From Ruminococcus sp. (GTDB lineage Bacteria; Bacillota; Clostridia; Oscillospirales; Ruminococcaceae): DNA of 64,000 nucleotides. The stretch spans positions 26,612-90,611 of the forward strand of contig SVNL01000001.1 in the NCBI GenBank assembly GCA_015066925.1, written 5' to 3'. The notes under the pieces are model-generated. The model worked only from the letters and a program-made list of their open reading frames with translations, did not search any database and had not been told where the DNA came from. The position numbers and the translations under genes are program-made. This document shows, piece by piece, positions 36,981-61,894 of the stretch. Numbering within the stretch: the stretch's first letter is position 1; every line of letters starts with the position of its first letter.

Positions 36981-39389
36981 TTATGCAACAGGAAGAGTAT
37001 CAATCATTTTAAGTGAATACTTCTGAATAGCGATAGCGTCCTGAACATTAAGTCCGTCGTTTCCGATAACATCAGCATTCTTAGCACCATCATCTGTAAT
37101 AGCATAAGCCTTTGGATTGATAAGATAGCACTTGACTAATACAACGTCAGCAATATCAGCTGAACCATCACAGTTAGCGTCGCCTGCTTTATAGTTTTCA
37201 GAAGTTACAGGTGGTGTTACCGGTTCTGTTGTAGGCTCTGTAGGAGTCTGAATATCACTTGATGAAGTAATTGTTATTGATGTAACCTTAACATAATCAC
37301 TTGCAGGCTTGAGCTCATTCCATGCAGAGTCAGCAGCATACCAATACTGGAGCTGAGCAGAATCTCTTGTCATAAGTTCCTGAGCGATAGCGTCGATAAT
37401 TTCCTGGTCGTCAATCGGAACAGCATTTCCGTCAGCATCAGGGTTTGTAACATCACCAACAGTTGATGGCTTAGTCATATCAATTTTGAATGTAGAACCT
37501 GATTCAGCAGCTTCCCATGAATAAGCTACCCAGTAATCAATACCGTCGTATTTTGTGTTGAAGCAAATACAACCATTTGCAAAGTTAACTTCATCTTCTG
37601 TTTCGATTGTAACATAAACAGTTTTGCCGATTGGCTGACCAAAGTTAATTGTTCCGTTAGGAAGAATTTCAGCTTCTGTTTTTTCAGGAGCTTTAAGAAG
37701 TGCAGCCTTTGTTATTTCACCGTAATCTGATGCAGGTTTAAGTTCAACCCAAGCTGAATCAGCAGCATACCAGTACTGAAGCTCAGTTTCTGTACTTGCC
37801 ATAACAGCTTCGATAAGCTGAGCAGTAACAGCTTCGTCAGTAACAGCTGTAGGATTGCCTTCTGCGTCTGTGTTTGTAGTATCCTGAACGAAAGTAGGCT
37901 TCTTCATATTAACGACTACATCGCCGTCTTCTGAAGCTTCCCACTGATATGAAATCCAATAGTCAACTTCGCCGATAGTGCTTGAGAAGCCGAGGCATCC
38001 GTTAACATAGTTTGCGCCATCCTTAACGTCAACTGTAAGCTGAACTGTATCGCCGATAGCCTGAGGGAAAGTGATTTTTCCTGTTGGGAGGATTTCACCC
38101 TCAACCTCTGTTTTTTCTTCGCCGAGGTCAGTTGGAGGAACTATGATAGTACCTTCATTGCCTGAATACTTATTAAGACCTTCAACGATTGAAGGGAATT
38201 TCCATGTGCATGTTTCTCTGTCGAGAACACCGAAGGCTTCGCCTGATGTGAAAGCATTGTTATCCCACCAGCAGCATGTAATGCCTCTTGCTCTTGCAGC
38301 AGCAATATAGTATGTAGCGTAATCTGTACGAGCCTGTAAGTTATCGCCTTTCTTTCTTGCACCGAATTCACCGATTACAACAGGAACATTTTTTGAGATG
38401 TATTTAGCATACAATGTATCCATAAGGTTATCAATTTCCTTTGAACCTGCAGAACCGATAGTAAATTCGTCAGTACTTCCTGACTCGCTCTGAGCCTGAA
38501 GTGCGAAGTTATAAGGAGTGTAAGCGTGAACTGAAAGAATAAGCTTATTCTTTGCAGTATCCTCAGGCATCTTGAAGTAGCTTGTAGTAGCACCGTCGAT
38601 TGAAGCACAGTAACCCGGAACCATAATGTAACGCTCAGCGTTATTACCGCCTGATTTACGGATTGTGTTTACAATTGTCTGGTTGAGGTCGTTAAGAGTT
38701 TCAACAGCGTCGATACACTTAGGGTCTGACATATTGAGCCACCACTCGTAAGTATCGCCGACAAGTCTTGGTTCGTTAAGACACTCGAAAATAAGCTTTT
38801 CGTCGTAATCCTTAAATCTTTCTGAGAGCTGAGTCCAGATGTTTGTAACATAAGCAGTTGAAGATTCAGCGTGAGCAGAGTCAGGATACATATACTTAAC
38901 ATCATTATCGTGGTGGATGTTAAGGATAACGTACATATCGTTAGCAAAAGCGTAATTTGCTACTTCTTCAACTCTGTCGAGCCAAGCCTTATTGATTTTT
39001 CCGTCTGAATCGAGGTGGTTGTGCCATGAAACAGGAAGACGAAGAGTCTTGAAGCCTGCGGCAGCAACAGCATCAATCATTTCTTTAGAAGTCTTGATTC
39101 CGCACCAGTATGATTCGATATCAAGGTCATTTTTATTATATCCGTCGTCATCTGTAGCGTCAAAAGTGTTACCGAGGTTAAATCCGAGAGTCATATCCGA
39201 AACGAACTTGAAAGAATCAATATCGGGAATACCCATTGAATCAATCTTAACATCAGGAACGTTATAATCGCCTGCAGCGACAGCGGTAAGTGAAGCCTGC
39301 TGATTTGGAACGGTTGTTGTGAACACAGGAACAGCCGCAAATGATAAAGCGAGAGCTGTTAATGTGCTTAAAATTCTTTTTTTAACCAT
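36981..39389 (-). CDS. secreted GH5-family endoglucanase with two tandem unidentified modules and C-terminal dockerin
   Basis: Signal peptide; GH5 motifs TLRLPVSW, FECLNEPRL, PVVIGEFGA; two about 130-aa repeats with QYWYAADSAWxELKPASDY; dockerin KAGDANCDGSADIADVVLVKCYLI...NADVIGNDGLNVQDAIAIQKYSL. Confidence 0.93.
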   Translation of the reverse strand: MVKKRILSTLTALALSFAAVPVFTTTVPNQQASLTAVAAGDYNVPDVKIDSMGIPDIDSFKFVSDMTLGFNLGNTFDATDDDGYNKNDLDIESYWCGIKTSKEMIDAVAAAGFKTLRLPVSWHNHLDSDGKINKAWLDRVEEVANYAFANDMYVILNIHHDNDVKYMYPDSAHAESSTAYVTNIWTQLSERFKDYDEKLIFECLNEPRLVGDTYEWWLNMSDPKCIDAVETLNDLNQTIVNTIRKSGGNNAERYIMVPGYCASIDGATTSYFKMPEDTAKNKLILSVHAYTPYNFALQAQSESGSTDEFTIGSAGSKEIDNLMDTLYAKYISKNVPVVIGEFGARKKGDNLQARTDYATYYIAAARARGITCCWWDNNAFTSGEAFGVLDRETCTWKFPSIVEGLNKYSGNEGTIIVPPTDLGEEKTEVEGEILPTGKITFPQAIGDTVQLTVDVKDGANYVNGCLGFSSTIGEVDYWISYQWEASEDGDVVVNMKKPTFVQDTTNTDAEGNPTAVTDEAVTAQLIEAVMASTETELQYWYAADSAWVELKPASDYGEITKAALLKAPEKTEAEILPNGTINFGQPIGKTVYVTIETEDEVNFANGCICFNTKYDGIDYWVAYSWEAAESGSTFKIDMTKPSTVGDVTNPDADGNAVPIDDQEIIDAIAQELMTRDSAQLQYWYAADSAWNELKPASDYVKVTSITITSSSDIQTPTEPTTEPVTPPVTSENYKAGDANCDGSADIADVVLVKCYLINPKAYAITDDGAKNADVIGNDGLNVQDAIAIQKYSLKMIDTLPVA

Positions 39390-40563: not shown

Positions 40564-40920
40564 TATTATTCAGCATCTGACAATAAAATACATAAAGGTG
40601 AAAAAATGTAAAAAAAAGACTGTTTGAAAAAACAGCCTTGTTTTTGGCTTTTATATAAAGCCGAGGGGTGGGTGTTGTTATACCCTAGAAAATAAGGTAT
40701 TGGAAGGTTTTATGTAAAGTATCGGAACGGTGATGAGAAAAACGTCCGATAACTTAACATCAGTTATCTGATTACGTTTATATTATATAATTTTTTTCTT
40801 TCTGCAACAACTCACATTCTGTTGTTTTGGTGGATAAAATGATTATTTTTATTTTGTTCTTGAAAAATCATTTTTTTAACCGATATATATAGTATAATAT
40901 TGTTTTATGGGAGGGATTAT

Positions 40921-41739
40921 ATGAATTTTTTATTCGGTACTGTAAACAGCTATGTTAAAGGTGTAGCGCTTAATAATAAATGGGAAATGAAAAAGAAAAA
41001 TAATGATTTTACTCCTGAAAAAAAGCTTACTGAAATGCAGAGAAAGAACGAACAGTTCAAGGCTTCATATAAATTGCAGAAGAAACAGGAAAAAGAGCTT
41101 ACAGATGAAATTATGGCTGATATCCATAAAAAAATCGACGCAGGAACTAAGCTCACTCCTGATGAGCTGAATTACCTTCAGTCAAAAGACCCCGTACTGT
41201 ATCAGAAAGTAAAGGATATGGAACGTGAAGTTAAGGAATATGAAGAGAAGCTTAAAAAATGTAAGACCAAAGACGAGGTAAATCGTGTTAAGATGCAGAA
41301 ATTCTCTGAGATAACCTCAGCTTTAAGTGCTGCAAAAAATGCTCCTGAGGGACAAAAGCTTGCTATGGCTCAGCATGTAATGAAGCGTCTTTCATTATTG
41401 CAGAAATCTGAGCTGAAAGTTGCAAAAAGCGGTCATTTCAATTCTTTGCCGACAGATGAAGAATACAACAAGGCTATGGCTGAATTAAAAGGTGAAAAGC
41501 TTCCCGAAACAGAAGAAAACATCAAAACAGAGGGCGGCGAAGAAATTATTGAAAAGGCTTCTGTTGAAATTAAGGAGCATGATAATTCCGAAAAAGCTGA
41601 AAAGGCTGAACCTGATACCGACAGCTATGAATTAAGAAAGGTTAAACGTTCAAGGGCGAAATCAAAATATCTTGAAACTATAAAAGAAACTCAGCCAACA
41701 ACGGTAAAAATTGTACCTGAAATCAATATAAAGGAATAA
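40921..41739 (+). CDS. hypothetical charged coiled-coil protein
   Basis: Good RBS (GGGAGGG) before ATG 40921; Lys/Glu-rich; no recognised domain. Confidence 0.75.
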   Translation: MNFLFGTVNSYVKGVALNNKWEMKKKNNDFTPEKKLTEMQRKNEQFKASYKLQKKQEKELTDEIMADIHKKIDAGTKLTPDELNYLQSKDPVLYQKVKDMEREVKEYEEKLKKCKTKDEVNRVKMQKFSEITSALSAAKNAPEGQKLAMAQHVMKRLSLLQKSELKVAKSGHFNSLPTDEEYNKAMAELKGEKLPETEENIKTEGGEEIIEKASVEIKEHDNSEKAEKAEPDTDSYELRKVKRSRAKSKYLETIKETQPTTVKIVPEINIKE

Positions 41740-41744
41740 TAATT

Positions 41745-41781
41745 AAAGCGGTTACAGTGAATTAAACTGTAACCGCTTTTG
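41745..41781. terminator. bidirectional terminator
   Basis: AAAGCGGTTACAGT-gaatta-AACTGTAACCGCTTTT between converging genes. Confidence 0.85.
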
Positions 41782-41801: not shown

Positions 41802-42737
41802 TCAGCTTACAATGCCTGAGCTTACGATACTTTCTGTAAAATATTTCTGTAGATAGCAATATAGAATAAGAAGCGGCAGAATTGAAATAAGACAGCCTGC
41901 CTGCATCCAGACAATTTGCTCTCGTGGACTTATATTGACGTTTGCATTATTGAAAAGAGCGATACTAAGCTGTGAATCAAGATTTTTCAGCATAAGTCCG
42001 ATAGTCTGATTGTTGGTGAAGAATGTAGAGCTTACATACGAGTCGTTCCAGTAAAAAACAACTGAAAACAAAAAAGCTGTTACAACAAATGAAAAGGCGT
42101 TTGGAAGCATAACTCTTATGAATGTTGAAAACGGAGAACATCCGTCCAGACAAGCGGCGTCCTCAAGCTCTCTGGGCAGACCTTTGAAAAACTGAATGAA
42201 AATCAGAATTATAAGTCCTGAGCGTATACCGTTTCCGAGCATTGCTGGAAGATACATACACGCAAATGTGTCAATCAGATTTACAGAGAAAATTCCCTTA
42301 ATTCCGAAATATCTGAACTGGGTATAAAGTGGGAGTGATATTACTTGTATTGGAACAAGAATTGTAAATATCAATATAGCAAGCAGTATTTTTTTTCCTC
42401 TGAAATTAAATCTTGCAAAGCCATAGCCCGTAACAGCACAGGAGATAACCTGAACAGCACAACAGCCTATATTGAGAACAAGAGTGTTTAAAAGAGTTTC
42501 ACCGAAGTTCATAGCCTGCATAGTTTCTTTTATGATATCCAGAGTGAAATTTCTGGGAATCCACATAACCGTAGGGTCATTCATATCACTGCGTTCTCTG
42601 AAGGAACAGCTTATCATATAAATAATTGGGTAAAGAATGATGAAGCTTAGTCCGATAAGAAGAGCATATCTGAAAAAGCGTATGAAAAAAGCGGAGATAT
42701 TTGTTTTGATACGATATTTTTTTTCTTCATCAGTCAT
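41802..42737 (-). CDS. carbohydrate ABC transporter permease (MalG-like)
   Basis: Six-TM binding-protein-dependent permease with EDAACLDGCSPFSTFIRVMLPN EAA loop. Confidence 0.92.
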   Translation of the reverse strand: MTDEEKKYRIKTNISAFFIRFFRYALLIGLSFIILYPIIYMISCSFRERSDMNDPTVMWIPRNFTLDIIKETMQAMNFGETLLNTLVLNIGCCAVQVISCAVTGYGFARFNFRGKKILLAILIFTILVPIQVISLPLYTQFRYFGIKGIFSVNLIDTFACMYLPAMLGNGIRSGLIILIFIQFFKGLPRELEDAACLDGCSPFSTFIRVMLPNAFSFVVTAFLFSVVFYWNDSYVSSTFFTNNQTIGLMLKNLDSQLSIALFNNANVNISPREQIVWMQAGCLISILPLLILYCYLQKYFTESIVSSGIVS

Positions 42738-42740
42738 AGT

Positions 42741-43643
42741 TCAGACCTCCTCATTTTCATAGTATATCATTTTTCTTGAAATGAGTGAAACGAGAGAGAT
42801 AATGATAAATACAATTGCAAAATATATCCACGCCATTGCTGCTGCAAGACCGAAATTAAGGTCGCTTCGGATTTCAAATATTCTTTTCATAACAGCGTTT
42901 GACGGATTGCTGAAAGCGTCTATAACGGTAAAAATGAAATTAGCCAGTATAAACGGACTTACATATGGGAAGGTTATTTTCCAGAAAAAATCCCATGCAC
43001 CTGCACCCTCTATTTCAGCGGCTTCTCTTGCTGATGTCGGAATATTCTGGAGTGCGGCAAGAAAAATGATAATCTGAATTCCCGAGCTCCAGACGATAGA
43101 GAAGATATTATCTGTGATGAGGATTATATAATCATTCATTTTTTCGGTAATTCCGTAGATACCGAGAAATTGCAGAAGCTCTCCGACAAGATTATTTGAA
43201 AAAAGCGTTGAAAACTGTTCGGCATGAATATTACCCGTATCAGCCATATCACCGCTTATAATGCTGTAAACGGGACCTGTTGCTATAATAACGGGAAGAA
43301 AGAAAACTGCTCTGAAAAAGGTTCTGCCTTTGAATTTATTATTGAGAATTACGGCGATAAACAGAGAAAAAATAATAATAAGCGGAGTTTTCCAAAGAGT
43401 TTCTTTAAGTGTTTTCCATAAAACAGAGCTGTATTTTCTGTCGGAAAAAAGAGCGTTGTAGTAATTTTTCATTCCCGAAAAGGATGTTACCATACTTTTA
43501 TTGCCGATATTTACATCGCTTAACGAGTAGATAAGAGATTTTACAATCGGAATGATGAAAAATATAAACGTACCGATAAGCCATAATGCTATAAAGCCAT
43601 AGCCATACAGTTGTTTTCTTTTTTCATAGCTTCTTTTTTTCAT
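42741..43643 (-). CDS. carbohydrate ABC transporter permease (UgpA/MalF-like)
   Basis: SAREAAEIEGAGAWDFFWKITFPYVSP EAA loop; start overlaps the upstream stop (TGATG). Confidence 0.92.
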   Translation of the reverse strand: MKKRSYEKRKQLYGYGFIALWLIGTFIFFIIPIVKSLIYSLSDVNIGNKSMVTSFSGMKNYYNALFSDRKYSSVLWKTLKETLWKTPLIIIFSLFIAVILNNKFKGRTFFRAVFFLPVIIATGPVYSIISGDMADTGNIHAEQFSTLFSNNLVGELLQFLGIYGITEKMNDYIILITDNIFSIVWSSGIQIIIFLAALQNIPTSAREAAEIEGAGAWDFFWKITFPYVSPFILANFIFTVIDAFSNPSNAVMKRIFEIRSDLNFGLAAAMAWIYFAIVFIIISLVSLISRKMIYYENEEV

Positions 43644-45901
43644 CAGTATGTAAAACCTCCTTTTTCGGTATAGTCGGAAAGCTCTATGATATTTCCGTTG
43701 AAATTAATCGTTTTGTTTTGAAAGTCAACAGCAATAATTGTTCCGTCTGAATAAGTGGTAATCGCAGTATTGCCCTTTTTGGTGTAATCGGAGATAACGC
43801 AGTCGCTTACGGTGGAAAGAATTTCTGAAACAAGAGCATATTGAGCCGATGCAGAAGAAGTCCAGCCGTTGTAATTTGCGTAGAAAAGTGTATCGAGTGA
43901 TGTATCGGCGATAGAAGATATATCCTCGTAAATCATATCATAGCTTAAATTGCTTCCTGACGAAACAGCACTCAGAATAAGATTTTCGGCGTCAGGAGAG
44001 CTGTTTACGGGAATTGTTGAATAGGGGATAATTCCGTGAAGAACAAGCTGGATAAACGGAATATCCTCATCGAAAATATCAAATCTGCTTGAAGAAAGAG
44101 GCAGATTTTTAATATGGCTTACATAAGGAAAAGCGTATGCATTTGCACTGTCAGCAAGAATAGAGCCTTGAAGCTTTTGGTTTAAATTATCATAACAGCT
44201 TTCGAGAATATTCATTGATTGATAGCGTGAAATATTCTTTTTGCCATAGTCACCGTAAATAGTGGAGGTCATATCACCGAGTGAAACACCGTCTATGTTT
44301 TTATCGGAATAATTTTCTGCCAGCTTTGAATATACCTCACCGAAATTTGACGGCGAAAGAAGTGACATCGGACTTTTCAGCTCATTTTTAACGCCGTATG
44401 CAAGGTCGTAGTTTATTATTCTTGAATATGAGCCTGTAATTCTTACGGTTGTATTGTTGAAGGAGTAATATCCCTCGCCCGAGTAGAAAGCCTTATTGTT
44501 AACAGACGGATACAATTCGAAATTATTATCATCTGCATACTTTTGCAAAGCCTTGAAGTCTTTTTTTCCGCCGAGTATATGAGCAGGCTTTGCCTTATAG
44601 TCAATTTTCTCCGATATTCCCGCATTAGTCCAGTTGTTGCAGGAAAGAACGATATTATCTGTTCCGGCACTTTTTAAATCAGAGAGAATTTCCTGTGTCT
44701 GCTGAAAGGTTGTCAATGATTTTTTCATGGATAGCGGAATTCCGAGAAATGATGTTTTCTTTTTTGTTCCACCATAGGTATCGACGTATAACGGAGCATA
44801 ATCAGCCTTTGTCTTTACTGTAAGATTTTCATTTTCGATAAGATGATTTCTGTAACGCTCCGCAATATCGGTATAGTCTGCATTCTCTTTTGAAATGGGA
44901 TAATACAGCAGCTCTATATCATCTGATTTTATTTTTCCGCCTTCGAAAACAGTAAGGCTGTTTCCGAGATTACCTGCCATATGGAAGGTATCGGTATCAC
45001 GAAGTATAAATGAAAAATTACAGATGTTATAATCGGTTTTGGACTGTTTTGAAACGCTTGCGTTAAGTCTTGCATTTGAGTCACCCTTTGAGGCAACGAC
45101 GAGAAGTGCATTATTTTCTTTTACTATTCCGTACATATTGAGGTAAAGCTGTTGTGTAACAGCCTCTTTGGTATTCGGTACAGCAGTTATATCAGCTCCG
45201 TATACTCTTTGTGAATATGTATCAGACGTAGTTTTTCCGTTATTGAAATTTATAAGAGCACCGCTTCCGTCGGGTATTACAAAATATCCGTTTTCATTTA
45301 CCGAGCCTGCACCGAAGCTTCCGAGCAGAGTGATTTCAACAGCAATATTTTCGGGATTATATTCCTCTATTTCAGCAGTTTTAAGACTTGCTTTAAGGTG
45401 GTCGTTTTCGAGCGTATATTCAACGGGATATCTGAAGCCTGCACTTTTAAAATCGTAGATAACTCTTATCCCGTTTTCTATGTCTGAAACAGAAATACTG
45501 CATTTTTTATCGTTTGAACGAAGTGTTTTGACGTTTCTTTCTTCAGGAATACCATAGCTTAAAATACTTGAAGAATTAAGTTGATTAATCAGCAGAGGAG
45601 TAGCTGTGGTATCTTTATTTGAGTCAATGGGTGATGACCACCATATATAGCCTGTTTGTTTATTTTCTATACCTATCATAGCTGTTTTGTCATCAATGAG
45701 CATTCGGTAAAGATTATTTTCACAGGCACATCTTATTTCGGATGAGGATGAATTTATTTCGACATAATCACTGCCGCCGACATCAGATGACGAAGCTTTT
45801 GGCTGAGAGTATGGGGTATATGTGTCATCAGCCGAAACCGAAGAAGCTGTATGGAGAAGTAAAAAAGCGGACAGGAATATAAGCGGATATTTTTTCTTCA
45901 A
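43643..45901 (-). CDS. secreted DUF5696-like protein (glycoside-hydrolase-like architecture)
   Basis: Signal peptide; beta-rich N-terminal half (NGYFVIPDGSGALINFNNGKT) then TIM-barrel-like half (IDGVSLGDMTSTIYGDYG); family assigned from remembered architecture and neighbourhood, not a search. Confidence 0.65.
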   Translation of the reverse strand: MKKKYPLIFLSAFLLLHTASSVSADDTYTPYSQPKASSSDVGGSDYVEINSSSSEIRCACENNLYRMLIDDKTAMIGIENKQTGYIWWSSPIDSNKDTTATPLLINQLNSSSILSYGIPEERNVKTLRSNDKKCSISVSDIENGIRVIYDFKSAGFRYPVEYTLENDHLKASLKTAEIEEYNPENIAVEITLLGSFGAGSVNENGYFVIPDGSGALINFNNGKTTSDTYSQRVYGADITAVPNTKEAVTQQLYLNMYGIVKENNALLVVASKGDSNARLNASVSKQSKTDYNICNFSFILRDTDTFHMAGNLGNSLTVFEGGKIKSDDIELLYYPISKENADYTDIAERYRNHLIENENLTVKTKADYAPLYVDTYGGTKKKTSFLGIPLSMKKSLTTFQQTQEILSDLKSAGTDNIVLSCNNWTNAGISEKIDYKAKPAHILGGKKDFKALQKYADDNNFELYPSVNNKAFYSGEGYYSFNNTTVRITGSYSRIINYDLAYGVKNELKSPMSLLSPSNFGEVYSKLAENYSDKNIDGVSLGDMTSTIYGDYGKKNISRYQSMNILESCYDNLNQKLQGSILADSANAYAFPYVSHIKNLPLSSSRFDIFDEDIPFIQLVLHGIIPYSTIPVNSSPDAENLILSAVSSGSNLSYDMIYEDISSIADTSLDTLFYANYNGWTSSASAQYALVSEILSTVSDCVISDYTKKGNTAITTYSDGTIIAVDFQNKTINFNGNIIELSDYTEKGGFTY

Positions 45902-45912
45902 GATTTTTCACC

Positions 45913-46542
45913 TCACACCTTTATTCTGTAAGAAAGCTCTGAAAATACAGAATAAACAAAAACATAAATCTGCTGTATAAGCGACAAGAAAAGTACAAGT
46001 AAAAAAAGAATTATAAACATTGCAATAATGGTAAGAAAAGCGGCAAAAAGAGTTTTTGCGAGCGAAAACTGATGTACGGCTTTTACTGCACTCAGAAGCA
46101 GTATTGCAGTCCAGACGGTGCCGATAATTTTAATAATGAGCATAAAAATATATTCATCTCTGACAAGAAAATGAGATAAAATAACGTTTATATAAAGCTG
46201 TGAAATATACGGAATAAGGGCATATGAGCAGTAAATCCATATTTTTTTCAGCGAGCCTTCGCCGTCAAGTATAGAGCAGACTGCAAAATTTCCGACAGAC
46301 CATACTGCAAAAAGTACAATGCTTTTTATAAAATACGGAACTATATTAAATACCTTTTCGTCAGGAAATCGGAACTGAAATCCGTATAATCTTCCGTCAG
46401 CGATAACTGCAAAGAAAAAAAGTGCAAGAATAATTACAGAAATTTTCAATGAACCGCCTTTTTTCCATCTAAGGTCTTCAAAACCCTCAAAGGCGTGAAA
46501 AACAGTATGTTTAAGCCATTGACGTTTTGTAAGATTAAGCAA
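45913..46542 (-). CDS. Yip1-like multi-TM membrane protein
   Basis: About five hydrophobic segments; Yip1-type gene neighbourhood. Confidence 0.65.
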   Translation of the reverse strand: MLNLTKRQWLKHTVFHAFEGFEDLRWKKGGSLKISVIILALFFFAVIADGRLYGFQFRFPDEKVFNIVPYFIKSIVLFAVWSVGNFAVCSILDGEGSLKKIWIYCSYALIPYISQLYINVILSHFLVRDEYIFMLIIKIIGTVWTAILLLSAVKAVHQFSLAKTLFAAFLTIIAMFIILFLLVLFLSLIQQIYVFVYSVFSELSYRIKV

Positions 46543-46547
46543 AATAA

Positions 46548-48017
46548 TCAGCTCCGTTCTTTATGTTTTTTGCGTTTGATAATAAATGATATAATTGAAA
46601 TCGTAATTACAATAACTGCGATAATTATGGTGAAATTTTCTTTAAGAAATTCATTGCGCCAGCCCTCGAAAGCCTTGTTGTAGTAGTATGAGGATTCAGC
46701 AAGCTTTGCGTATTCCATTGCACCTTTATAGTCGTTTTTTTTCAGCAGGGCAACCGATACCCCAAGATAAGCAATGCGATAATTTCCGTCACAGCGTAAA
46801 ACCTCGTACCATGGCTCAAGAGCCTCTTCATAAAAACCGTCGTTATAAAGTGAAATAGCCTTGTGAACTGTTTTGCCAAACGGTGTTTCTCTGAAAAAAG
46901 TAACAGTATTTTTCAGACCGTCAGTTACATAGAGCATATCCTCGTAAGACTCAATTGCTGTAACCTGATTGCTGAATCCGCCGACCTGTTCAGCTTTTGT
47001 GCCCATAATAAAGAGCAGGTTACATTCCTCGTCATAGCGGAAAATACGTCCTGTTGTAAGGTCGAGGCAGTTGATACAGCCGTCTGAGCTTACGTCGATA
47101 TCATTAATCATTGTGTGGTAGTATATATTTTCAGTCGAGTCGTAAACAGGTGTTATATCTCCGAAAATCACGTCCTTATCGGCGAATATATTTTTACCTG
47201 CTGAATTGAGCTTTTTAATAATATCGCAGGACTGTGTTGCTGATTGAGTACAGGTAAAGATAAAGCCTTTTTCGTCGATATCGAAATTGGTTATTGCTGA
47301 GGGAATGTTTCTTTCCTGACGAGCTTTTTTCTTTGCTGTTGTAAATAATTTTTTGACGAAGTTGTCAATTGAATTCGGCTGTGAGTCAACACGATTAGCG
47401 CCATAAAATCCGATAAATTTACCGTCTGCATCAAACATAGCCGCACCCGATGTAATATTTCCGAGAACTGCATAAATATTTCCCGCATTATCAGAAATAA
47501 CTTTAAGCGGATGAAATGAGCTCTGGGGATAGATAGCAGAATCGGGCTTTGTTATTTCTTTGATAACATTGCATTTGAAATCGCTTACAAGAATTCTTGA
47601 ATTTTCCGAATCTGCAATGTAAATAAGATTTTTTTCGGAAGAGATATAAATTCCCGTAGGCTTTGATAGCACGGTTTTACTGCCGTTTTCATAATAAAAT
47701 GTATCGTAAACATTAATAACGCTGTCAAGCTCTGAATTTAATGCAACAATACGGTTGTTGCCTGTATCGGCGATATAGATTGTTCCGTTATCTGCGGCAA
47801 AAATATCGCTTGGTGAATTGAAGTCTGATATTCCGAGAGTATTTCCCGAAACAGATTTTTCAGCGATATATCCAGCCTGTGACGGTACAGCAAAGCCGTG
47901 GCTGTCGTAATTATAAACGTCATAGGGTGAATGTGCAAAGGCTGTAAGGCAGGTTGTAAAAGAGAACAGCACAGCCATTATAATCAGAAGAGAAAAAAAT
48001 CTGAAGCATTTTTTCAT
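46548..48017 (-). CDS. membrane-anchored extracellular NHL-repeat beta-propeller with TPR-like segment
   Basis: Signal peptide; repeated SDIFAADNGTIYIADTGNNRIVALNSE / IYIADSENSRILV NHL motifs; ALEPWYEVLRCDGNYRIAYLGVSVALLKKNDYKGAMEYAKLA TPR-like; C-terminal TM plus basic tail. Confidence 0.85.
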   Translation of the reverse strand: MKKCFRFFSLLIIMAVLFSFTTCLTAFAHSPYDVYNYDSHGFAVPSQAGYIAEKSVSGNTLGISDFNSPSDIFAADNGTIYIADTGNNRIVALNSELDSVINVYDTFYYENGSKTVLSKPTGIYISSEKNLIYIADSENSRILVSDFKCNVIKEITKPDSAIYPQSSFHPLKVISDNAGNIYAVLGNITSGAAMFDADGKFIGFYGANRVDSQPNSIDNFVKKLFTTAKKKARQERNIPSAITNFDIDEKGFIFTCTQSATQSCDIIKKLNSAGKNIFADKDVIFGDITPVYDSTENIYYHTMINDIDVSSDGCINCLDLTTGRIFRYDEECNLLFIMGTKAEQVGGFSNQVTAIESYEDMLYVTDGLKNTVTFFRETPFGKTVHKAISLYNDGFYEEALEPWYEVLRCDGNYRIAYLGVSVALLKKNDYKGAMEYAKLAESSYYYNKAFEGWRNEFLKENFTIIIAVIVITISIISFIIKRKKHKERS

Positions 48018-48024
48018 AATTAAT

Positions 48025-48903
48025 TTATTCCTTTATGCCAGAATGAGCCATAGTTTCAATAACATTTTTCTGAGCTAATGTAAAGATTAATATTGGGGGA
48101 ATGAGCATGAAAACTGCGGCTGCCATTGCAACGCCCGCCCTTGAAATTCCCGAAGAAGCCGCCTGCATAACAACGGTAGGGAGTGTTTTTAACGCCTCGT
48201 CATAAACAAGCGAGCCGCCCTGAATATTCCATGCACCCTGAAATGCAAATATAACAACTGTCATAAGAGCAGGCTTTTGATTTGGTATAACAATTTTCCA
48301 GCAGATAGTAAACATTCCTGCGCCATCAACCTTAGCGGCTTCAATCATAGCGTCAGGAGTGTTAGAGATAGACTGCTTCAAAAGAAAAAGACTCATAGGC
48401 GAAGCTATTGACGGAAGAATAAGGGCATGATATGTGTTAACCATTCCAAGCTCGGAAATGATAATATACTGCATAATGTATATTACATTGCTCTGATAAA
48501 GAAGTGATACAACGATTATTGAATTAATCAGCTTATTACCCGGGAATTTGCCTTTAGCAAGAACAAAAGCCGCCATAGCCGAGAAAAAGCATTGGAAAAA
48601 AGTAACTGCACCCGTAACGAATACGCTGTTGAAAAAATAACGTGAAAACGGAACCCACATATTATTCAGCGAGTCAAACATATCACGGAAATTATCAAGC
48701 GTCGGATTAAGCGTATAGAGCTTGGGCGGAAATACAAAAAGCTCTTCAACAGGCTTTATTGACATAATAACCGCAAGATAAATCGGCATAAGCATAAAAG
48801 CACCGATAATGAAAAGTATAATGAAAATACATACAGTACCGCCGATTTTTTTACCTGCCTGTTTATTGGAGGCTTTTAATTTTTTTACATTTATATCAGT
48901 CAA
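48025..48903 (-). CDS. carbohydrate ABC transporter permease (MalG-like)
   Basis: DAMIEAAKVDGAGMFTICWKIVIPNQKPAL EAA loop; six TM. Confidence 0.92.
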   Translation of the reverse strand: MTDINVKKLKASNKQAGKKIGGTVCIFIILFIIGAFMLMPIYLAVIMSIKPVEELFVFPPKLYTLNPTLDNFRDMFDSLNNMWVPFSRYFFNSVFVTGAVTFFQCFFSAMAAFVLAKGKFPGNKLINSIIVVSLLYQSNVIYIMQYIIISELGMVNTYHALILPSIASPMSLFLLKQSISNTPDAMIEAAKVDGAGMFTICWKIVIPNQKPALMTVVIFAFQGAWNIQGGSLVYDEALKTLPTVVMQAASSGISRAGVAMAAAVFMLIPPILIFTLAQKNVIETMAHSGIKE

Positions 48904-48904
48904 A

Positions 48905-49822
48905 TCAAGTCTCCTCGTCCATATATTTTCCGAAAAATCTGCTTACAAATCTGTTAGCGATGTACATAAAAACGAATAAAATCATGCAGATAGCCGAAGC
49001 GTAGCCTACCTCGTAGCGTACCCAGCCATAGTCAAAGGCGTGAGTCATTACGGTATGAGCCTTATAGTCGGTGCTTGGGAAGCCTACAAGATTTTGTGCG
49101 ACAGTACCTGCTGCAAAAGAGCTTACAATCTGCATTACTGCGGCAAAAAGAAGTTGTGGAGCCATTGAAGGAATTGTGATGTAAATAAGCTCCTGCCAGC
49201 GTGTGCTTATACCTTCAATAGCGGCGGCCTCGTACTGAGTTTTATCAATATTCTGAAATCCGGCACGCATTGCCAGAAAGCCTGCTCCAAGACTTATCCA
49301 GAGCTGAACAACAATTACAACTCCGAGAATATAGCGTGAATCGGTAAGCCATTGAACAGGGGAAGTAATAATTCCGAGATTAATCAGCAAGGAATTAAGA
49401 TATCCGTAAGCGTCACCGCTGAAAATGAGCTGCCACATGGTATATACTCCTGCAATTGACGGAGCGTAAAAAATAATGGTGAAAACAGTTTTCAATACCG
49501 AAGGAAGCTCATTAATCATCCACGCAAGTAAAAAGCAGAGTATATAGCTTATAGGGCCGGTAACAAGAGCAAAAATCAAAGTGGTTTTAATTGAATCAAT
49601 AAAAACCTTATCAGAAAGAAAGAGGTTATAAAAATTTGAAAGTCCCACAAATTCGGCATCAACCATATTAAAATCAGTAAAAGCGATAGGAACCGATATT
49701 ATAACCGGAATTATTGTGAATACTGTAAAAAAGAGCATAAACGGTAAAAGCATAAAATAACATTCTTTATTTTTTCTTATTTGCTTGTACAAAGAATTTT
49801 TTGTGTTTTTTTTCAAATTCAT
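48905..49822 (-). CDS. carbohydrate ABC transporter permease (UgpA-like)
   Basis: TQYEAAAIEGISTRWQELIYITIPSMAPQ EAA loop; six TM. Confidence 0.92.
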   Translation of the reverse strand: MNLKKNTKNSLYKQIRKNKECYFMLLPFMLFFTVFTIIPVIISVPIAFTDFNMVDAEFVGLSNFYNLFLSDKVFIDSIKTTLIFALVTGPISYILCFLLAWMINELPSVLKTVFTIIFYAPSIAGVYTMWQLIFSGDAYGYLNSLLINLGIITSPVQWLTDSRYILGVVIVVQLWISLGAGFLAMRAGFQNIDKTQYEAAAIEGISTRWQELIYITIPSMAPQLLFAAVMQIVSSFAAGTVAQNLVGFPSTDYKAHTVMTHAFDYGWVRYEVGYASAICMILFVFMYIANRFVSRFFGKYMDEET

Positions 49823-49835
49823 AGCCTCCTTTCTG

Positions 49836-52781
49836 TTATCTTAGAGTTTTATTTTTTCTATTGATTTCCTCGTTTATATCCTTGTTGTACCATAAAAGAG
49901 TATCACGAGGATTTTCTGATTGATTTACAACCTCACGAAAGGCTGTCATAATATTTCGTGTAACAGCGTATGAAGCAGGAATTATCGGTATTTCCTTAAT
50001 TTCGTTACGCTGAAGCATAAGTCTTTCAAGCTCATTATCAGACCATGAAAGTCTGTTCAGAGCATATGTATTTGCGGTTTCAAAGCGTCCGAGAGTACCG
50101 AGAATACCTTCGTTTTGCAGTGCATATTCAGTTTGTATTTCGTCTGATGTGAACCATTTTATGAACTCCCATGCACCTTCTTTGTTTTCGGCAGAGCTGA
50201 AAATAACTGCTCCCGAGCCGTTTGAATTTACAGCATGGGATATTGTACCGTCAGCCGAAGCTGTACCCGGAACAGAAGTGAAATTCCACTGACCTTTTAT
50301 TTCGGGAGAAGCTGTTATAAGCTGATTGTAAAATGTATAATTTGAAATTACGATAGGATATTCACCTGTACGGAAGCGGCTGAAAGCGTCGTATGACTGG
50401 TTGAAGCTGTAATCGGTATAAAAATCCGTCCACATTTCAAATGCGTTTACGGCTTCGGTTGAATTGAGCGTTGAAAGAGTAAGCTCAGAGTTGTAGTAGG
50501 TGAGATTTTGCTGTAGCATAAGAAGTGCAAAGGTATGACCGCATTCGGTTGCAGGAGAAATATTTGCAGGAGGAAGAACAAGTCCGACCGACATATAGTT
50601 TCTCTGAATTGCAGGCAAAATGTCAATAAGCTCGTCCCACGTTTCAGGAGGACGTGTAATACCGAGTTCGGACAGAATATCCGTCCGATAGAACATCATT
50701 GGCCACACCTGACTTATCGGCAGTCCATAGCAGCCGTTATTGTATTGATATTGAACCGAAGCATTTTCCTGAAATCTTTCCATAACGTAATCGTAATCTT
50801 CAAATTGCGAAAGGTCGGTAAGGAGTCCTCTCGAGGCAAGATTTACGGGAAATTCACCGCCCAGAAACAATACAGCGTCGGGTTCTTTTCCTGCAAGAGC
50901 AGCTTCGACAATACCGCCGTTTACAAGATTTATTGCAACAGGAATATCATATTTTTCCATAAAATCAGCTTCCGCAAGCTGTTTTATTATCTGAGCCTGT
51001 TCACGTCCGTTATTTACCCATATTTCGATTGCTTCTTCGTCATTTATGTCTGAAAGCGTAGTGTAATCCTCGAAAAATGAGCCAATAAAGGCTTCACAGC
51101 CGAATTTGAGTGATTTTATAAATTTCTTTTCAACAGATGAAAATTTTCGGTCTGCCGAAGCAAGCTCTATATAGTCAATTTCAAGAGGCTGGTCACGGTA
51201 ATCCCTCGTCCATGCGGAAAGCGAGGTGATATTATCCTTTATTTGATAGAGGTATTCAGGTATTTTAAGCGGCTTTTCGATACATTTATCAAGAATTACC
51301 GTCATTCTTTCGATTGCCGCCGCTTCTGAACCGATTGAGCCTGATAGATTTTCGATTTCAGACTGAATATCTTTAAGCTGATTTGAAATTGCTTCAAATT
51401 CGCTTACAAGCTCAGGAATTTTTTCGTGAACATAATAATCCGTATATTTATCGGGAACAGGTCCCGTAATCATTAGAATTTTACGATAATATGTGTTAAG
51501 AGAATCAATAACATCATCAAGCCTGCGGATTGAGCCGCCTATTTCACCCGGTACAGCCTCTAAGGTTACAGAGTGATCTGAGCCTGCGGAAAGGTAAACG
51601 TATATATACTCGCCGTCCGAGGTTTTAGGAGAAACAAGATTCCAATCGGTATCATAAAAGAATTTAACCTGCTCAAGCTCATTGCACGGAACTTCACCGT
51701 CAATATAAATTCTTCTGTTTGAATAAAATCCTCTCATACTGCTCTGGCGTGATTTTATTCCTATTTTATACCAGCCGTCAGAGGCGATTCGTTCAGCGGG
51801 AATAGTCCATGTAAGACTTTGAAACGCTTTTTTCCAGTTGTCTTTTCCGATAGTGTTATACACTATCTTTCTTGGGTTTGATGGTGAAACGGTATAGTCG
51901 TTGTTGTCATAGGTTGGTGAAAGAACAGATGATGATTTGAAATCAGCATTTTCGCCCTCAAGCCTTATAATATCCGACGGAGTATTATCAACTGTCACTG
52001 ATGAATTTAACAAGGAAGCGTATTCGGAATAGCTTTTTACCTTTTGAGGATTATAGAATTTGAAGCTTTCGACAGCAAGATTTGCTTTTTCGGATTTAAA
52101 TGTAATGGTGTGGCTTCCGTTTTCGAGATAAAAAATCAAAGGCTCGTTAAAAAGACCATCGGTATCATTGAAATCAGAGCATATCCACATACCTGACTGA
52201 ACCTGTACGGGCTTAATCTGATTTTTTCTTGAGTCCTCAGAAATTTTCTGCTTGTTTACCCAGACCTTATTTAGTGTAATTCGGTTTGCGGTATCAAACG
52301 GAGCTTCACCGTCAATTTCAATTGAGAATTCAATTTCGGAATTTTTTGATACGATAGGGAAATAGGTCATATTGATACAGTAAATGCCTGTTTCGGGGAT
52401 ATTGAAATCGTAAGAGATTTCACCGTCTGAGCTTTCCCATATAAGAACATTATTTTTTATATCGTCAGCTTCACCGTATTTTCCTACTGAGAAGCTTCCG
52501 CCGTTTGTAGAAGAATAATCCGAAGCATTTATTAAGACCTCGCAATCGGGACGATTTTGCAATGAATACAAATCGAAGTAATCGCTGTAGGAGATTGACG
52601 GAGAATACGATATATCTGATAAATTATAATAATCACTTGTCATCTGTGAGAACGTTTCAAGCTTTGATGGAGTAATGGTATCGTCAGCAAAAACAGAGCT
52701 GAAAGACGCCATATGAGCAAAGCATGTAAACAAAGCTGAAACGGAAGAAATAAATTTTATAAAGGGGTGTTTTTTACTCAA
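49836..52781 (-). CDS. giant secreted solute-binding protein with N-terminal beta-sandwich modules (981 aa)
   Basis: Signal peptide; N-terminal CBM-like segments (IEIDGEAPFDTANRI..LENGSHTITFKSE); C-terminal SBP fold (DAVLFLGGEFPVNLASRGLLTDLSQF...YGLPISQVWPMMFYRTDILSELGITRPPETWDEL). Confidence 0.85.
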   Translation of the reverse strand: MSKKHPFIKFISSVSALFTCFAHMASFSSVFADDTITPSKLETFSQMTSDYYNLSDISYSPSISYSDYFDLYSLQNRPDCEVLINASDYSSTNGGSFSVGKYGEADDIKNNVLIWESSDGEISYDFNIPETGIYCINMTYFPIVSKNSEIEFSIEIDGEAPFDTANRITLNKVWVNKQKISEDSRKNQIKPVQVQSGMWICSDFNDTDGLFNEPLIFYLENGSHTITFKSEKANLAVESFKFYNPQKVKSYSEYASLLNSSVTVDNTPSDIIRLEGENADFKSSSVLSPTYDNNDYTVSPSNPRKIVYNTIGKDNWKKAFQSLTWTIPAERIASDGWYKIGIKSRQSSMRGFYSNRRIYIDGEVPCNELEQVKFFYDTDWNLVSPKTSDGEYIYVYLSAGSDHSVTLEAVPGEIGGSIRRLDDVIDSLNTYYRKILMITGPVPDKYTDYYVHEKIPELVSEFEAISNQLKDIQSEIENLSGSIGSEAAAIERMTVILDKCIEKPLKIPEYLYQIKDNITSLSAWTRDYRDQPLEIDYIELASADRKFSSVEKKFIKSLKFGCEAFIGSFFEDYTTLSDINDEEAIEIWVNNGREQAQIIKQLAEADFMEKYDIPVAINLVNGGIVEAALAGKEPDAVLFLGGEFPVNLASRGLLTDLSQFEDYDYVMERFQENASVQYQYNNGCYGLPISQVWPMMFYRTDILSELGITRPPETWDELIDILPAIQRNYMSVGLVLPPANISPATECGHTFALLMLQQNLTYYNSELTLSTLNSTEAVNAFEMWTDFYTDYSFNQSYDAFSRFRTGEYPIVISNYTFYNQLITASPEIKGQWNFTSVPGTASADGTISHAVNSNGSGAVIFSSAENKEGAWEFIKWFTSDEIQTEYALQNEGILGTLGRFETANTYALNRLSWSDNELERLMLQRNEIKEIPIIPASYAVTRNIMTAFREVVNQSENPRDTLLWYNKDINEEINRKNKTLR

Positions 52782-52981
52782 GATAAATCAGCTCCTTTTT
52801 CAAAAACAATATATTATAATTATAACAATTTCGTCAATTATTGTCAAGAAAAACGAATTCTTTATGACCTTTTTGCTAATGATTGGAAATGTTTTTGCAG
52901 ATTTAAAATCGGTAAATGAAAAAACAGCTGATTAATTGAAAATCAGCATAAATTCTGATTAGAATTATTTGAAAAAAAGAC

Positions 52982-53133: not shown

Positions 53134-53874
53134 TTGGAAAACGTATTGGAAGTTAAAGGACTGTCAAAGCAGTATTCAAAGGTTCTTGCGGCAAACGATG
53201 TTAAATTTGAAATCGGAAGCGGAGAAATATTTGCACTTATAGGTCCTAACGGAGCAGGAAAAACAACAACTATCAGAATGATTTCAACGCTTATTAAGCC
53301 AACATCAGGTGATGCGATTGTCGCAGGGCACAGTGTTGTAAAGGAGCCTGAAAAGGTTCGTGAATGTATAACCTATCTGCCTGATGAAGCAGGTGCTTAT
53401 AAAAATATGAAGGGTGTTTCTTATCTTAGATTTATGGCTGGGCTTTTTACGTCTGACCTCAATCTCATTGAAGAATATGTAAAAAGAGCGTCTGAGATTT
53501 GTAAGCTCGGTGCAAGACTTGAAGATAAAATCGGTACATACAGTCGAGGTATGATTAGAAAGCTCCTTCTTGCAAGAGCTGTAATGACACGTCCGAAGCT
53601 TGCTATTTTAGACGAGCCTACAAGTGGACTTGATGTTATAAATGCAATTGAAATCAGAAAAATGATAAAGGAGCTTGCTGCAAAAGAAGGAACCTCTTTC
53701 CTTATTTCTTCACATAATATGCTCGAAATCGAATTCGTATCAAACAGAGTAGGAATAATGGCAAAAGGAAAGCTTATGACTGTTGGTATGGCAGATGAGC
53801 TTAAAGCAAAATATAACGCAGAAAATCTTGAAGAAGTATTTGAAAGGGTGGTGCTTGAAAATGAAGTTCATTAA
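53134..53874 (+). CDS. ABC transporter ATP-binding protein (NatA-like)
   Basis: Walker A GPNGAGKTTTIRM, YSRGMIRKLLLARAVM signature-like, LAILDEPTSGLD. Confidence 0.95.
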   Translation: MENVLEVKGLSKQYSKVLAANDVKFEIGSGEIFALIGPNGAGKTTTIRMISTLIKPTSGDAIVAGHSVVKEPEKVRECITYLPDEAGAYKNMKGVSYLRFMAGLFTSDLNLIEEYVKRASEICKLGARLEDKIGTYSRGMIRKLLLARAVMTRPKLAILDEPTSGLDVINAIEIRKMIKELAAKEGTSFLISSHNMLEIEFVSNRVGIMAKGKLMTVGMADELKAKYNAENLEEVFERVVLENEVH

Positions 53875-55216
53875 TCTTCTTAAAAAAGAGCTTGTTGAGC
53901 TTGTTAATAAACAAATGCTCTTAGGACTTGTAATTGCATTTTCTATTTTGTTTATTGTGGGAGAGGTTACCAACGAGGTTATCGAGGATGTACAGAGCAA
54001 TATCTATAACGTTAACATCGTAGATGAAGACGATAGCGATTTTTCACATGAAATTATAGAAAAGCTTAAAACTCTTCAAGGCAGTGAGGACGAGGACGGA
54101 ATTAAGCTTAACATAATTCCGAAAGCAGATTTGAACAAAGATAATTATTCCGCTGTTCTTGATAAGCATAAAATCGACAGTCTTATAATTATTCCGTCGG
54201 GATTTTCAAAAACAATTCTTGAAGAAAATAAAACAGCTGAGCTGAAAACTGTTTCAAGAATGAAATCAGCGTCAGCATTAAGTTCGGTTTCGTCTGATAC
54301 AAGCGGCGGAATAAATCTTATAAATGATTGCATAAAGACTAAGATAATGACCGAAAAAGGTATTGAAGCTGAGGATATTTCTGTTATTGACACACCTGTT
54401 ACAGTAAGTGATACAACAGTAGTTGACGGAAAACAGAGTGAAATATCAGCAGGTAACATAATGAGCAATATGATGACAAGAAATATGATAATTCCGATTA
54501 TTGTATTTGTTCTCGTAATCTATACATCTCAGATGATTGTAAACGCTATATCAACCGAAAAAATTGATAAAACTCTTGAAACACTTTTATCTGCTCCTGT
54601 ATCGAGAACATCTATTCTCTCATCAAAAATGCTTGCAGCAGCAATAGTTGCTCTTTTGAATGCAGTTGTTTATATGATTGGCTTCAGCAGTTTTGTAAAG
54701 GGTGCAACGGGTTCTGTTGCAGAGGGTGCTGCCAGTCAGACTGTTAATGTAGGTGAAGCTATGAAACAGCTCGGACTTACACTCTCAGCAGGCGATTATG
54801 TTCTTATCGGACTTCAGATGTTCCTTACAATTATGATTTCACTTTCAGTTTCTATCATTCTCGGAGCAATGGTAAACGACGCTAAATCTGCTCAGACAAT
54901 AATTATGCCGATAATGTTCTGTGCTATGGTTCCGTATATGATTTCAATAGTAGCTGATGTAAATACTCTTCCGACAGCTATAAAAACTGCTGTATATGCT
55001 ATTCCGTTTACTCATACATTTACTTCAATGAATAATCTTATGTTCGGTAACTACAGTCTTTTCTATATAGGCGTTGGTTATCAGGCTTTACTTTTCATTG
55101 TATGTATGTTCTGTGCGGTAAAGCTCTTCAACTCAGACAAAATCCTTACAGCCTCACTCAATTTCGGACAGAAATCAAAATTCAAAAAATCAAATAAGGC
55201 TGTTTCTGAGGAGTAA
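53861..55216 (+). CDS. ABC-2 type permease (NatB-like)
   Basis: N-terminal TM, large extracellular loop, TEKIDKTLETLLSAPVSRTSILSSKMLAA; start at ATG 53861 overlapping the ATPase gene. Confidence 0.93.
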   Translation: MKFINLLKKELVELVNKQMLLGLVIAFSILFIVGEVTNEVIEDVQSNIYNVNIVDEDDSDFSHEIIEKLKTLQGSEDEDGIKLNIIPKADLNKDNYSAVLDKHKIDSLIIIPSGFSKTILEENKTAELKTVSRMKSASALSSVSSDTSGGINLINDCIKTKIMTEKGIEAEDISVIDTPVTVSDTTVVDGKQSEISAGNIMSNMMTRNMIIPIIVFVLVIYTSQMIVNAISTEKIDKTLETLLSAPVSRTSILSSKMLAAAIVALLNAVVYMIGFSSFVKGATGSVAEGAASQTVNVGEAMKQLGLTLSAGDYVLIGLQMFLTIMISLSVSIILGAMVNDAKSAQTIIMPIMFCAMVPYMISIVADVNTLPTAIKTAVYAIPFTHTFTSMNNLMFGNYSLFYIGVGYQALLFIVCMFCAVKLFNSDKILTASLNFGQKSKFKKSNKAVSEE

Positions 55217-57473: not shown

Positions 57474-57709
57474 AATTAATCTCCTATCATTAAATAAATA
57501 TATGCATTATTATAGCCGCTTTTTTATAATATATAATCGAATTATTACAATTTGTATATGCGATATGCGAAAATTTGTTTTTTTATAACAATTTACTAAA
57601 AATTTGCATATAAATTTTAGAAGAAAATTTATAAAGTATATTGCAAAAAAATAAATTTTATTGTACAATATGTAGTGATAGAATATTATCACGAAAGGTT
57701 GAAAATTTT

Positions 57710-60541: not shown

Positions 60542-61582
60542 TTATCTTAGATGAATTAAATCAAATATGTCGATTTCTCCGTTGCCGTCAGCATCGGCAT
60601 TATTGCATTGCTGATTTTTTTCGAGGATATAATCGCTTGCTTGTGTACTGATTTTTTTTGCATCATTTTTTGAGAAATATGATGTACCAAGCTCGTGGGT
60701 ATCCGTATTCAGCTTGCTTTGTTCATTAAGCTTTTCGCCGTCGTAGAGATAAATGTCATAATTTCCTTTTTGTGTCGAGGATATGAAAAGACGCTTATCA
60801 TCAATGGGGAATGGGTCGGAGCAGTTGAAATCCGCATTATTGAACGGCATGGGAAGAATTTCATTATTGTTTACTCTGAAAATTCCGTCGTTTCGGTTAT
60901 TTTCTGAAATCCAGCCTGAAAAATAGAATAGGTCAGCGTTTGTTATGGGATAATACTCTTGTATTCCTTTTCTGTCGTATATTTCGGAGATTTCCTTTGT
61001 TTCTTTATTCAGGGAGTAAATTCCTGAGTCTGCACCTACTCCTTTTGCGAAATATACAGTTTTTCCGTCGGCACTGTAGCATGGCATAGACTCCTCTGAA
61101 ATATCGTCGGTAAGCATTGATATTTTGCCTGTCATAAGGTCAATCTCGGCAAGATTATAGATGAAGCTGTCGAATTCATTGCTCCAGTAGCCCTGCTTGA
61201 ACACTACACTATAGCCGTCAGGAGAAAATTTCGGGTCCTCGCTGCGATAATGTCCATCATATGTAAGATTTGTGAAGCTGTTGCTTATAGTGTTATATCT
61301 GAAAATATCCCATTTATCTGCTTCCTTGTTTATAGCCATAAAAACAATATCGCTGTCGGTCGCACCGAAGTCACCATTCATAGCGTTATAAAAATTTGGG
61401 GACTCTATATTCAGCATATCGTCAGATGAATAATCATAGATTTTAAGCTTGCTGTCTGAGGCTTCATAAGAGCTGTAGCTGTGGAAAATAATTTTTCCCG
61501 AAGGCTCAAAGGCTTCTTCCGACGAGCTTGCCGCTGTGGACAAAAGCGAAATAATGCTTATTGCACATAAAATAAATTTCAT
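60542..61582 (-). CDS. secreted TolB-like beta-propeller with a single dockerin-like repeat at the C-terminus
   Basis: PD40/WD40-like repeats (DPKFSPDGYSVVFKQG, MPCYSADGKTVYFAKG); ends NNADADGNGEIDIFDLIHLR*. Start chosen at 61582 (MKFILCAISIISLLSTAA signal); the ORF-track start is further upstream. Confidence 0.82.
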   Translation of the reverse strand: MKFILCAISIISLLSTAASSSEEAFEPSGKIIFHSYSSYEASDSKLKIYDYSSDDMLNIESPNFYNAMNGDFGATDSDIVFMAINKEADKWDIFRYNTISNSFTNLTYDGHYRSEDPKFSPDGYSVVFKQGYWSNEFDSFIYNLAEIDLMTGKISMLTDDISEESMPCYSADGKTVYFAKGVGADSGIYSLNKETKEISEIYDRKGIQEYYPITNADLFYFSGWISENNRNDGIFRVNNNEILPMPFNNADFNCSDPFPIDDKRLFISSTQKGNYDIYLYDGEKLNEQSKLNTDTHELGTSYFSKNDAKKISTQASDYILEKNQQCNNADADGNGEIDIFDLIHLR

Positions 61583-61894
61583 AGCTTTTTTCCTCCTTGC
61601 TGTTTTTATCATAATTTCAGTACATGATAAATTCCTTTTAATGATAAATATTATATAATATTTCGCAACGATAATCAATAGTTTGTTGGAAAAAAAGACT
61701 AAAATTTTACATATAGTAAATTTTTTGCCTGCCTTTTATGGTGAATTTGTTTAAAAGTATGTCGAAAAAATGTAGTGGTTTATGCTATAATGCAAAATGT
61801 TATCAAAATTCGGGAATAATTCACAAAAAATATATTGAAATAATTTACTCAATGTGTTAAAATAGAATAGAATATTAAGGATAGGAGGATAATT

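Follow-up and report, generated by a model that had tools for sequence, protein, structure and literature searches.

The 64-kb stretch of Ruminococcus sp. DNA analysed here (contig SVNL01000001.1; hereafter the window) carries on its minus strand an operon of eight co-directional genes (41802-52781), which encode a large solute-binding protein (SBP), two pairs of ATP-binding cassette (ABC) permeases and three accessory proteins, namely an NHL protein, a Yip1-domain membrane protein and a DUF5696 protein. This eight-gene set is a real conserved system that is widespread in Bacillota. Its parts are of known kinds, and the assembly is a variant of the CUT1 importers with an uncharacterised conserved accessory module, undescribed in the literature searched. 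We read it as a single importer of complex oligosaccharides, anchored at the cell surface and composed of two modules that cooperate, a reading to which we give about an even chance. The host genome is that of a Ruminococcus of the R. flavefaciens group, as judged from its nearest named relatives, and its assembly (1.8 Mb) is 79% complete.

Gene order and conservation

In operon order, the genes encode SBP1 (981 amino acids (aa), 49836-52781), the CUT1 permeases permA1 (305 aa, 48905-49822) and permC1 (292 aa, UgpE/MalG-like, 48025-48903) of pair 1, the NHL protein (489 aa, 46548-48017), the Yip1 protein (209 aa, 45913-46542), the DUF5696 protein (752 aa, 43643-45901), and the CUT1 permeases permA2 (300 aa, UgpA-like, 42741-43643) and permC2 (311 aa, UgpE/MalG-like, 41802-42737) of pair 2. 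The gaps between them are 13, 1, 7, 5, 11, -1 and 3 nucleotides (nt), the -1 being a TGATG overlap at 43643. An earlier reading of the sequence alone (the original prediction) had given these eight minus-strand genes with the same coordinates, lengths, order and spacing, and all of them, including the overlap, were found as described. Its calls of one SBP, four permeases, NHL, Yip1 and DUF5696 were likewise borne out by Pfam and NCBIfam, and for SBP1 and DUF5696 structure models were added.

About 180 neighbourhoods were retrieved and their genes were labelled by profiles grown from the proteins of the window. All eight genes stand in the order SBP1-permA1-permC1-NHL-Yip1-DUF5696-permA2-permC2 in 161 loci, which come from Ruminococcus, its order, its class and other classes of Bacillota; this is an upper count of independent cases, since some loci fetched both by name and by handle come from the same genome. 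The incomplete neighbourhoods mostly reflect contig ends or gene-calling gaps, and the median gaps between neighbouring genes range from -4 to 17 nt. Because the same eight-gene order recurs in 161 loci, the arrangement is far beyond chance clustering, and its presence in other classes rules out a local oddity of close relatives. The original prediction had called for such a survey and would have been undermined by a neighbourhood confined to close relatives; instead, the same order was met across the class and also outside it, in other classes of the phylum.

Outside the genus, the median identities to the proteins of the window are 26-49%, with permA1 the highest (49%). Of the 89 other genomes of the genus, 87 encode DUF5696 (PF18952), almost always in a single copy, and it occurs in 27 of the 45 genera sampled around Ruminococcus; at scores above the family cut-off it was found in 91 of the 393 class genomes and in 30 of the 300 phylum genomes sampled. 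Moreover, the N-terminal half of SBP1 and full-length DUF5696 occur together in 78 of the 393 class genomes and apart in 3 (2 / 1; p = 4e-79), one of these exceptions being a 3.3-kb contig. Up to six divergent copies of the cassette are present in one genome (G099). In locus L118 the DUF5696 gene is apparently interrupted by two reverse-strand open reading frames (ORFs) of 263 and 498 aa, which may be an insertion element, and four loci (L145, L146, L147 and L148) have stand-alone, shorter DUF5696 relatives (~570 aa) without the permease cassette.

Architecture of the transporter proteins

SBP1 consists of a signal peptide, two CBM35/6-like beta-sandwiches (residues ~80-245 and 270-410), a helical stalk (414-530), an SBP domain (585-954) and a C-terminal helix. 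The two beta-sandwich domains, the stalk and the SBP domain are seen in its structure model (predicted local distance difference test (pLDDT) 87.5), and the Pfam match to SBP_bac_1/8 covers residues 596-887 (expectation value (E) 1e-26). The second sandwich matches the CBM35 region of CITase (E 3e-11) and the first one does so weakly, while a profile search of PDB placed the SBP domain nearest to the oligosaccharide binders Lin1841 and CbpB. BPD_transp_1 is found in all four permeases by Pfam, and Pfam together with NCBIfam assigns them to the heterodimeric MalF/UgpA and MalG/UgpE types; permA2 is under Pfam's own cut-off for BPD_transp_1, yet it is UgpA-like at E 5e-17. Both permease types and the SBP_bac_1-type binding protein by which a CUT1 importer is recognised are therefore encoded in the operon. 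It is not the sole sugar importer of the genus, as ordinary CUT1 operons exist too (L266, L267 and L271). Proteins of 750-830 aa with a weak SBP_bac_1 domain that may serve as the binding-protein input of a sensor were also seen (G000:C85, C48 and their equivalents in other Ruminococcus).

The NHL protein has a signal peptide, an NHL propeller and a single transmembrane helix near the C-terminus (462-480), followed by a basic tail, and is thus membrane-anchored at its C-terminus. It had been described as an NHL/TPR propeller; the NHL repeats are confirmed and the TPR part is weak (E 0.07). The Yip1 match scores 42 bits against a cut-off of 28.6, with about five hydrophobic segments, and in 37 loci of other lineages NHL and Yip1 form one fused protein.

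Two modules and a second binding protein

Six loci from other classes (L254, L255, L256, L262, L263 and L265) have NHL-Yip1-DUF5696-permA2-permC2 but neither SBP1 nor pair 1. In several other lineages an ordinary SBP of 430-500 aa (SBP2) directly follows permC2; in locus L252 the giant SBP comes after permC2. The lone occurrence of the second part and the SBP after permC2 divide the cassette into a module A (SBP1 and pair 1) and a module B (NHL, Yip1, DUF5696, pair 2 and SBP2).

No SBP follows permC2 in Ruminococcus, where the best matches to the post-permC2 SBPs are orphan SBPs without an adjoining permease gene. One of them (L270:4881-6290), in the window's own genome, lies next to an epimerase gene and a pair of metF-like genes, an arrangement shared by L268, L273 and L277, and it has a paralog (L269:4364-5797). 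The ordinary CUT1 SBPs of Ruminococcus genomes, scored against the SBP2 proteins, gave no match. In a maximum-likelihood tree, the Ruminococcus orphans cluster with the SBPs that follow permC2 in L260 and L140 (support 100/98), SBP2_L140 being a long branch. The orphan type is present in 87 of 90 genomes of the genus; the three that lack it have a completeness of 73-74%. In a further 59 genomes of the order it was found in 16 of the 34 DUF5696 carriers vs none of the 25 non-carriers (p = 2e-5). We predict from this that the unlinked orphan SBPs are the partners of pair 2 in Ruminococcus. The original prediction that two permease pairs share one SBP thus holds for this operon only, because other lineages provide pair 2 with an SBP of its own and Ruminococcus has orphan candidates for it.

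It may be asked whether the operon simply holds two independent importers that never form a joint complex. Module B without module A in other classes and locus L054, where pair 2 lies upstream of the SBP, are in line with this, as is the low identity between the pairs (26% for permA1 vs permA2; 21% over 174 aligned positions for permC1 vs permC2). However, the eight-gene order in so many loci, and the fact that SBP1 and DUF5696 are almost never apart in the class, speak for a joint function, and we regard two separate importers as improbable.

ATPase supply

None of the eight genes encodes an ATP-binding subunit. The nearest ABC ATPase gene (53134-53874, plus strand) was rejected as the missing subunit, since it is divergent and is accompanied by an ABC-2 permease of its own. 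ORFs whose size (~246 and 446-477 aa) matches that of this divergent ABC-2 exporter (ATPase and permease, 53134-55216, plus strand) lie divergently upstream of SBP1 in many loci of the R. flavefaciens group. A shared MsmX-type ATPase had been expected originally, and an orphan MsmX/UgpC-type ATPase gene (381 aa, L114:9420-10565) is present in the window's genome, beside a pseudouridine-synthase-like gene, as a candidate partner; PotA is also present, within the pot operon. Such sharing is established for MsmK of Anaerocellum bescii, whose Athe_0595-0598/MsmK system (PMC12838199) likewise combines an SBP and a UgpA/MalG-type heterodimeric permease without an ATPase gene of its own with an orphan MsmX-type ATPase elsewhere, and has more than one SBP.

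The absence of an ATPase, which was stated originally and is true of this operon, is not a general trait but lineage-specific, because SBP1 is immediately preceded by two ABC ATPase genes of the LolD type in R. albus and sister genera (L131, L132, L153, L207, L209 and L222), one encoding 225-246 aa and the other 310-348 aa with an AbrB/MazE-like C-terminal tail. No FtsX permease gene was found beside them in the loci read. A dedicated pair of this kind was rejected for the window's genome, since in its 79% complete assembly the best match has only 38% identity and there is no tailed ortholog.

The DUF5696 protein

The DUF5696 protein carries a signal peptide and matches its family with 526 bits in Pfam; most of its relatives are without a lipobox. 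Over the whole chain, its structure model (mean pLDDT 89) matches the GH129-like 3,6-anhydro-D-galactosidase DagB (5opq) by Foldseek (E 6.9e-29), and NagBb (template modelling (TM) score 0.75 by target) and GH101 are matched in the same way, so the protein is GH-like as had been proposed. It shares with the alpha-N-acetylgalactosaminidases of GH129/GH101 (NagBb and EngBF) and with DagB an N-terminal beta-sandwich, a TIM barrel and a C-terminal beta domain; it differs from them in being only 12-13% identical, in its non-conserved catalytic Asp positions and in its tie to ABC permeases. A profile of diverse DUF5696 sequences finds DagB (E 3e-11) and NagBb (E 7e-8). The Pfam scan of the protein returned DUF5696 only, without a match to the GH129 profile PF11308; this profile gave no match in the window's genome, nor in the control genomes, and no GH129 protein was found in the phylum for direct alignment.

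The catalytic carboxylates of GH129/GH101 are not conserved in DUF5696, which otherwise shares the fold. D330 of NagBb, which we take to be a catalytic residue of GH129, aligns to S430 of the window protein, and Asp occupies this position in 7 of 117 DUF5696 representatives. The other residue, D435, is named catalytic in NagBb and is the only one of the two that is kept in DagB (PMC5698469). Its expected site at the end of beta-4 (position 543) is Asp in 35 of the 117, a count that depends on assigning beta-4 by topology, because a sequence match was sought for the second half of the barrel and none was obtained. No Asp or Glu of the barrel is invariant in the 117 representatives, the best-kept acid being D551 (84%; elsewhere N, A, H, F or S).

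These residues also bear on the alternative that DUF5696 is active outside the cell as an alpha-glycosidase of the GH129/GH101 type whose catalytic residues have shifted, and that it trims side chains and leaves the products to both importers. The strong fold and profile matches to DagB and NagBb fit it, and D551 together with the conserved R559, N587-x-Y589, H622 and N633 could line a pocket; moreover, the loss of one NagBb catalytic residue in DagB means that residues can shift in this fold. Against this stand the lack of any invariant barrel acid and the rarity of Asp at positions 430 and 543, and we consider an active enzyme unlikely. Since the catalytic Asp positions of the GH129 family are not conserved, DUF5696 is most likely a glycan-binding member of this fold, a gripper rather than a hydrolase, and it should not be filed as GH129. 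The dedicated complex-glycan 'processing and uptake machine' of the original prediction is therefore upheld in its uptake-like character, its conservation and its extracellular accessory proteins, while its processing part is not supported by the catalytic residues.

A proposed importer and its alternatives

In the importer that we favour, the CBM35/6-like domains and the stalk would hold SBP1 on or near an insoluble or branched glycan, and its SBP domain would hand oligosaccharide to pair 1. NHL and Yip1 would form a membrane-anchored scaffold, and the secreted DUF5696 would grip the glycan, most likely without cleavage, and feed pair 2, whose own binding protein would be encoded elsewhere in Ruminococcus as the orphan SBP2. 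Both permease pairs would be powered by the shared orphan MsmX-type ATPase. In a bolder version, NHL-Yip1-DUF5696, pair 2 and SBP2 would be an ATP-driven gripping and feeding unit that passes long or branched chains to SBP1 and pair 1; such a two-engine supercomplex is very doubtful, and if it were true, it would allow a Gram-positive bacterium to import glycans whose size or tight binding puts them beyond the reach of a single SBP-permease importer.

Several observations weigh against the favoured importer. The glycosidases flanking the cassette in other lineages vary (GH95, GH26, GH16, GH10 and others), so that no common substrate is visible, and as the flanking enzymes differ between lineages the substrate probably differs too; in Ruminococcus no glycan-degrading genes are conserved beside the operon. 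A lipobox is uncommon among SBP1 relatives (25 of 176 by loose matches, many of them spurious), which leaves the attachment of SBP1 to the cell unexplained, and the link of the orphan SBP2 to pair 2 rests on descent and co-occurrence, not contact. The control signals belong here as well. A promoter (52819-52847, minus strand), TTGACA-17-TATAAT with 12 of 12 consensus positions and a TG preceding the -10, ends 38 nt before the SBP1 start codon; the window has 3 such exact promoters vs 0.07 expected, and in 66 of 102 loci of Ruminococcus and near relatives the SBP gene is preceded by this promoter with no more than one mismatch. A strong consensus promoter and presence in almost every genome of the genus suit housekeeping as well as nutrition.

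A non-nutritional role, in which the system would recycle, sense or assemble envelope glycans or surface polymers of the cell itself and the permeases would be signal-coupled or assembly factors, agrees with the single copy in nearly every genome of the genus, the perfect promoter and the lack of conserved catabolic neighbours in Ruminococcus; a propeller, a Yip1 protein and a pseudo-glycosidase are also unusual for sugar import. The CBM35-like domains and the oligosaccharide-type SBP domain, however, speak against this role, as do the glycosidases adjoining the cassette in other lineages and the divergent copies in G099, which are as expected of nutrient systems. We therefore think an envelope function rather improbable.

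The operon ends in a strong intrinsic terminator after permC2 (41745-41779, minus strand), a near-symmetric stem of 14 pairs, which is faced by a convergent ORF (40900-41739).

Relation to known systems

Sus-type systems and Gram-positive polysaccharide-utilisation loci couple the capture of glycans at the surface to import and employ accessory binding proteins. The proposed surface capture and import with accessory binding proteins in the operon resemble them, but the operon lacks a TonB-dependent transporter, conserved glycosidases are not linked to it in Ruminococcus, and unlike substrate-specific polysaccharide-utilisation loci it is a general core set. It also differs from the CUT1 importers in the papers found by its two permease pairs, its CBM-bearing 981-aa SBP and the accessory NHL, Yip1 and DUF5696 proteins. 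Cellulose-induced ABC operons have been reported in R. albus 7 (PMC4300822), and their locus tags could not be matched to this operon. A literature search of open-access journal papers yielded no paper describing DUF5696 and no description of the Yip1, NHL and ABC combination or of the whole gene set.

Other genes of the window

A GH5 cellulase gene (36981-39389, minus strand) ends in a stretch like a type I dockerin (GDANCDGSADIADVVLVKCYL...NVQDAIAIQKYSL), recognised by eye without a profile match, which fits a cellulosome-forming Ruminococcus. The GH3 enzyme encoded at 57641-60445 (plus strand) has its halves reversed, with GH3_C at residues 46-299, then an Fn3-like domain and the GH3 N-terminal domain at 481-787. 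A PD40 propeller protein (60542-61678, minus strand) carries a single dockerin-like calcium loop at its end (NADADGNGEIDIFDLIHLR), and the gene at 61895-63814 (plus strand) encodes a GGDEF diguanylate cyclase fused to a LacI-type sugar-binding sensor domain.

Biological implications

Three uncharacterised protein families belong to a gene set whose order is maintained across Bacillota and which nearly all fibre-degrading Ruminococcus of rumen and gut possess. The prediction that the orphan SBPs serve pair 2 is directly testable. Identifying the cargo would show how these anaerobes harvest the breakdown products of plant fibre, and DUF5696 and bacterial Yip1 proteins of this kind would thereby receive their first assigned function.

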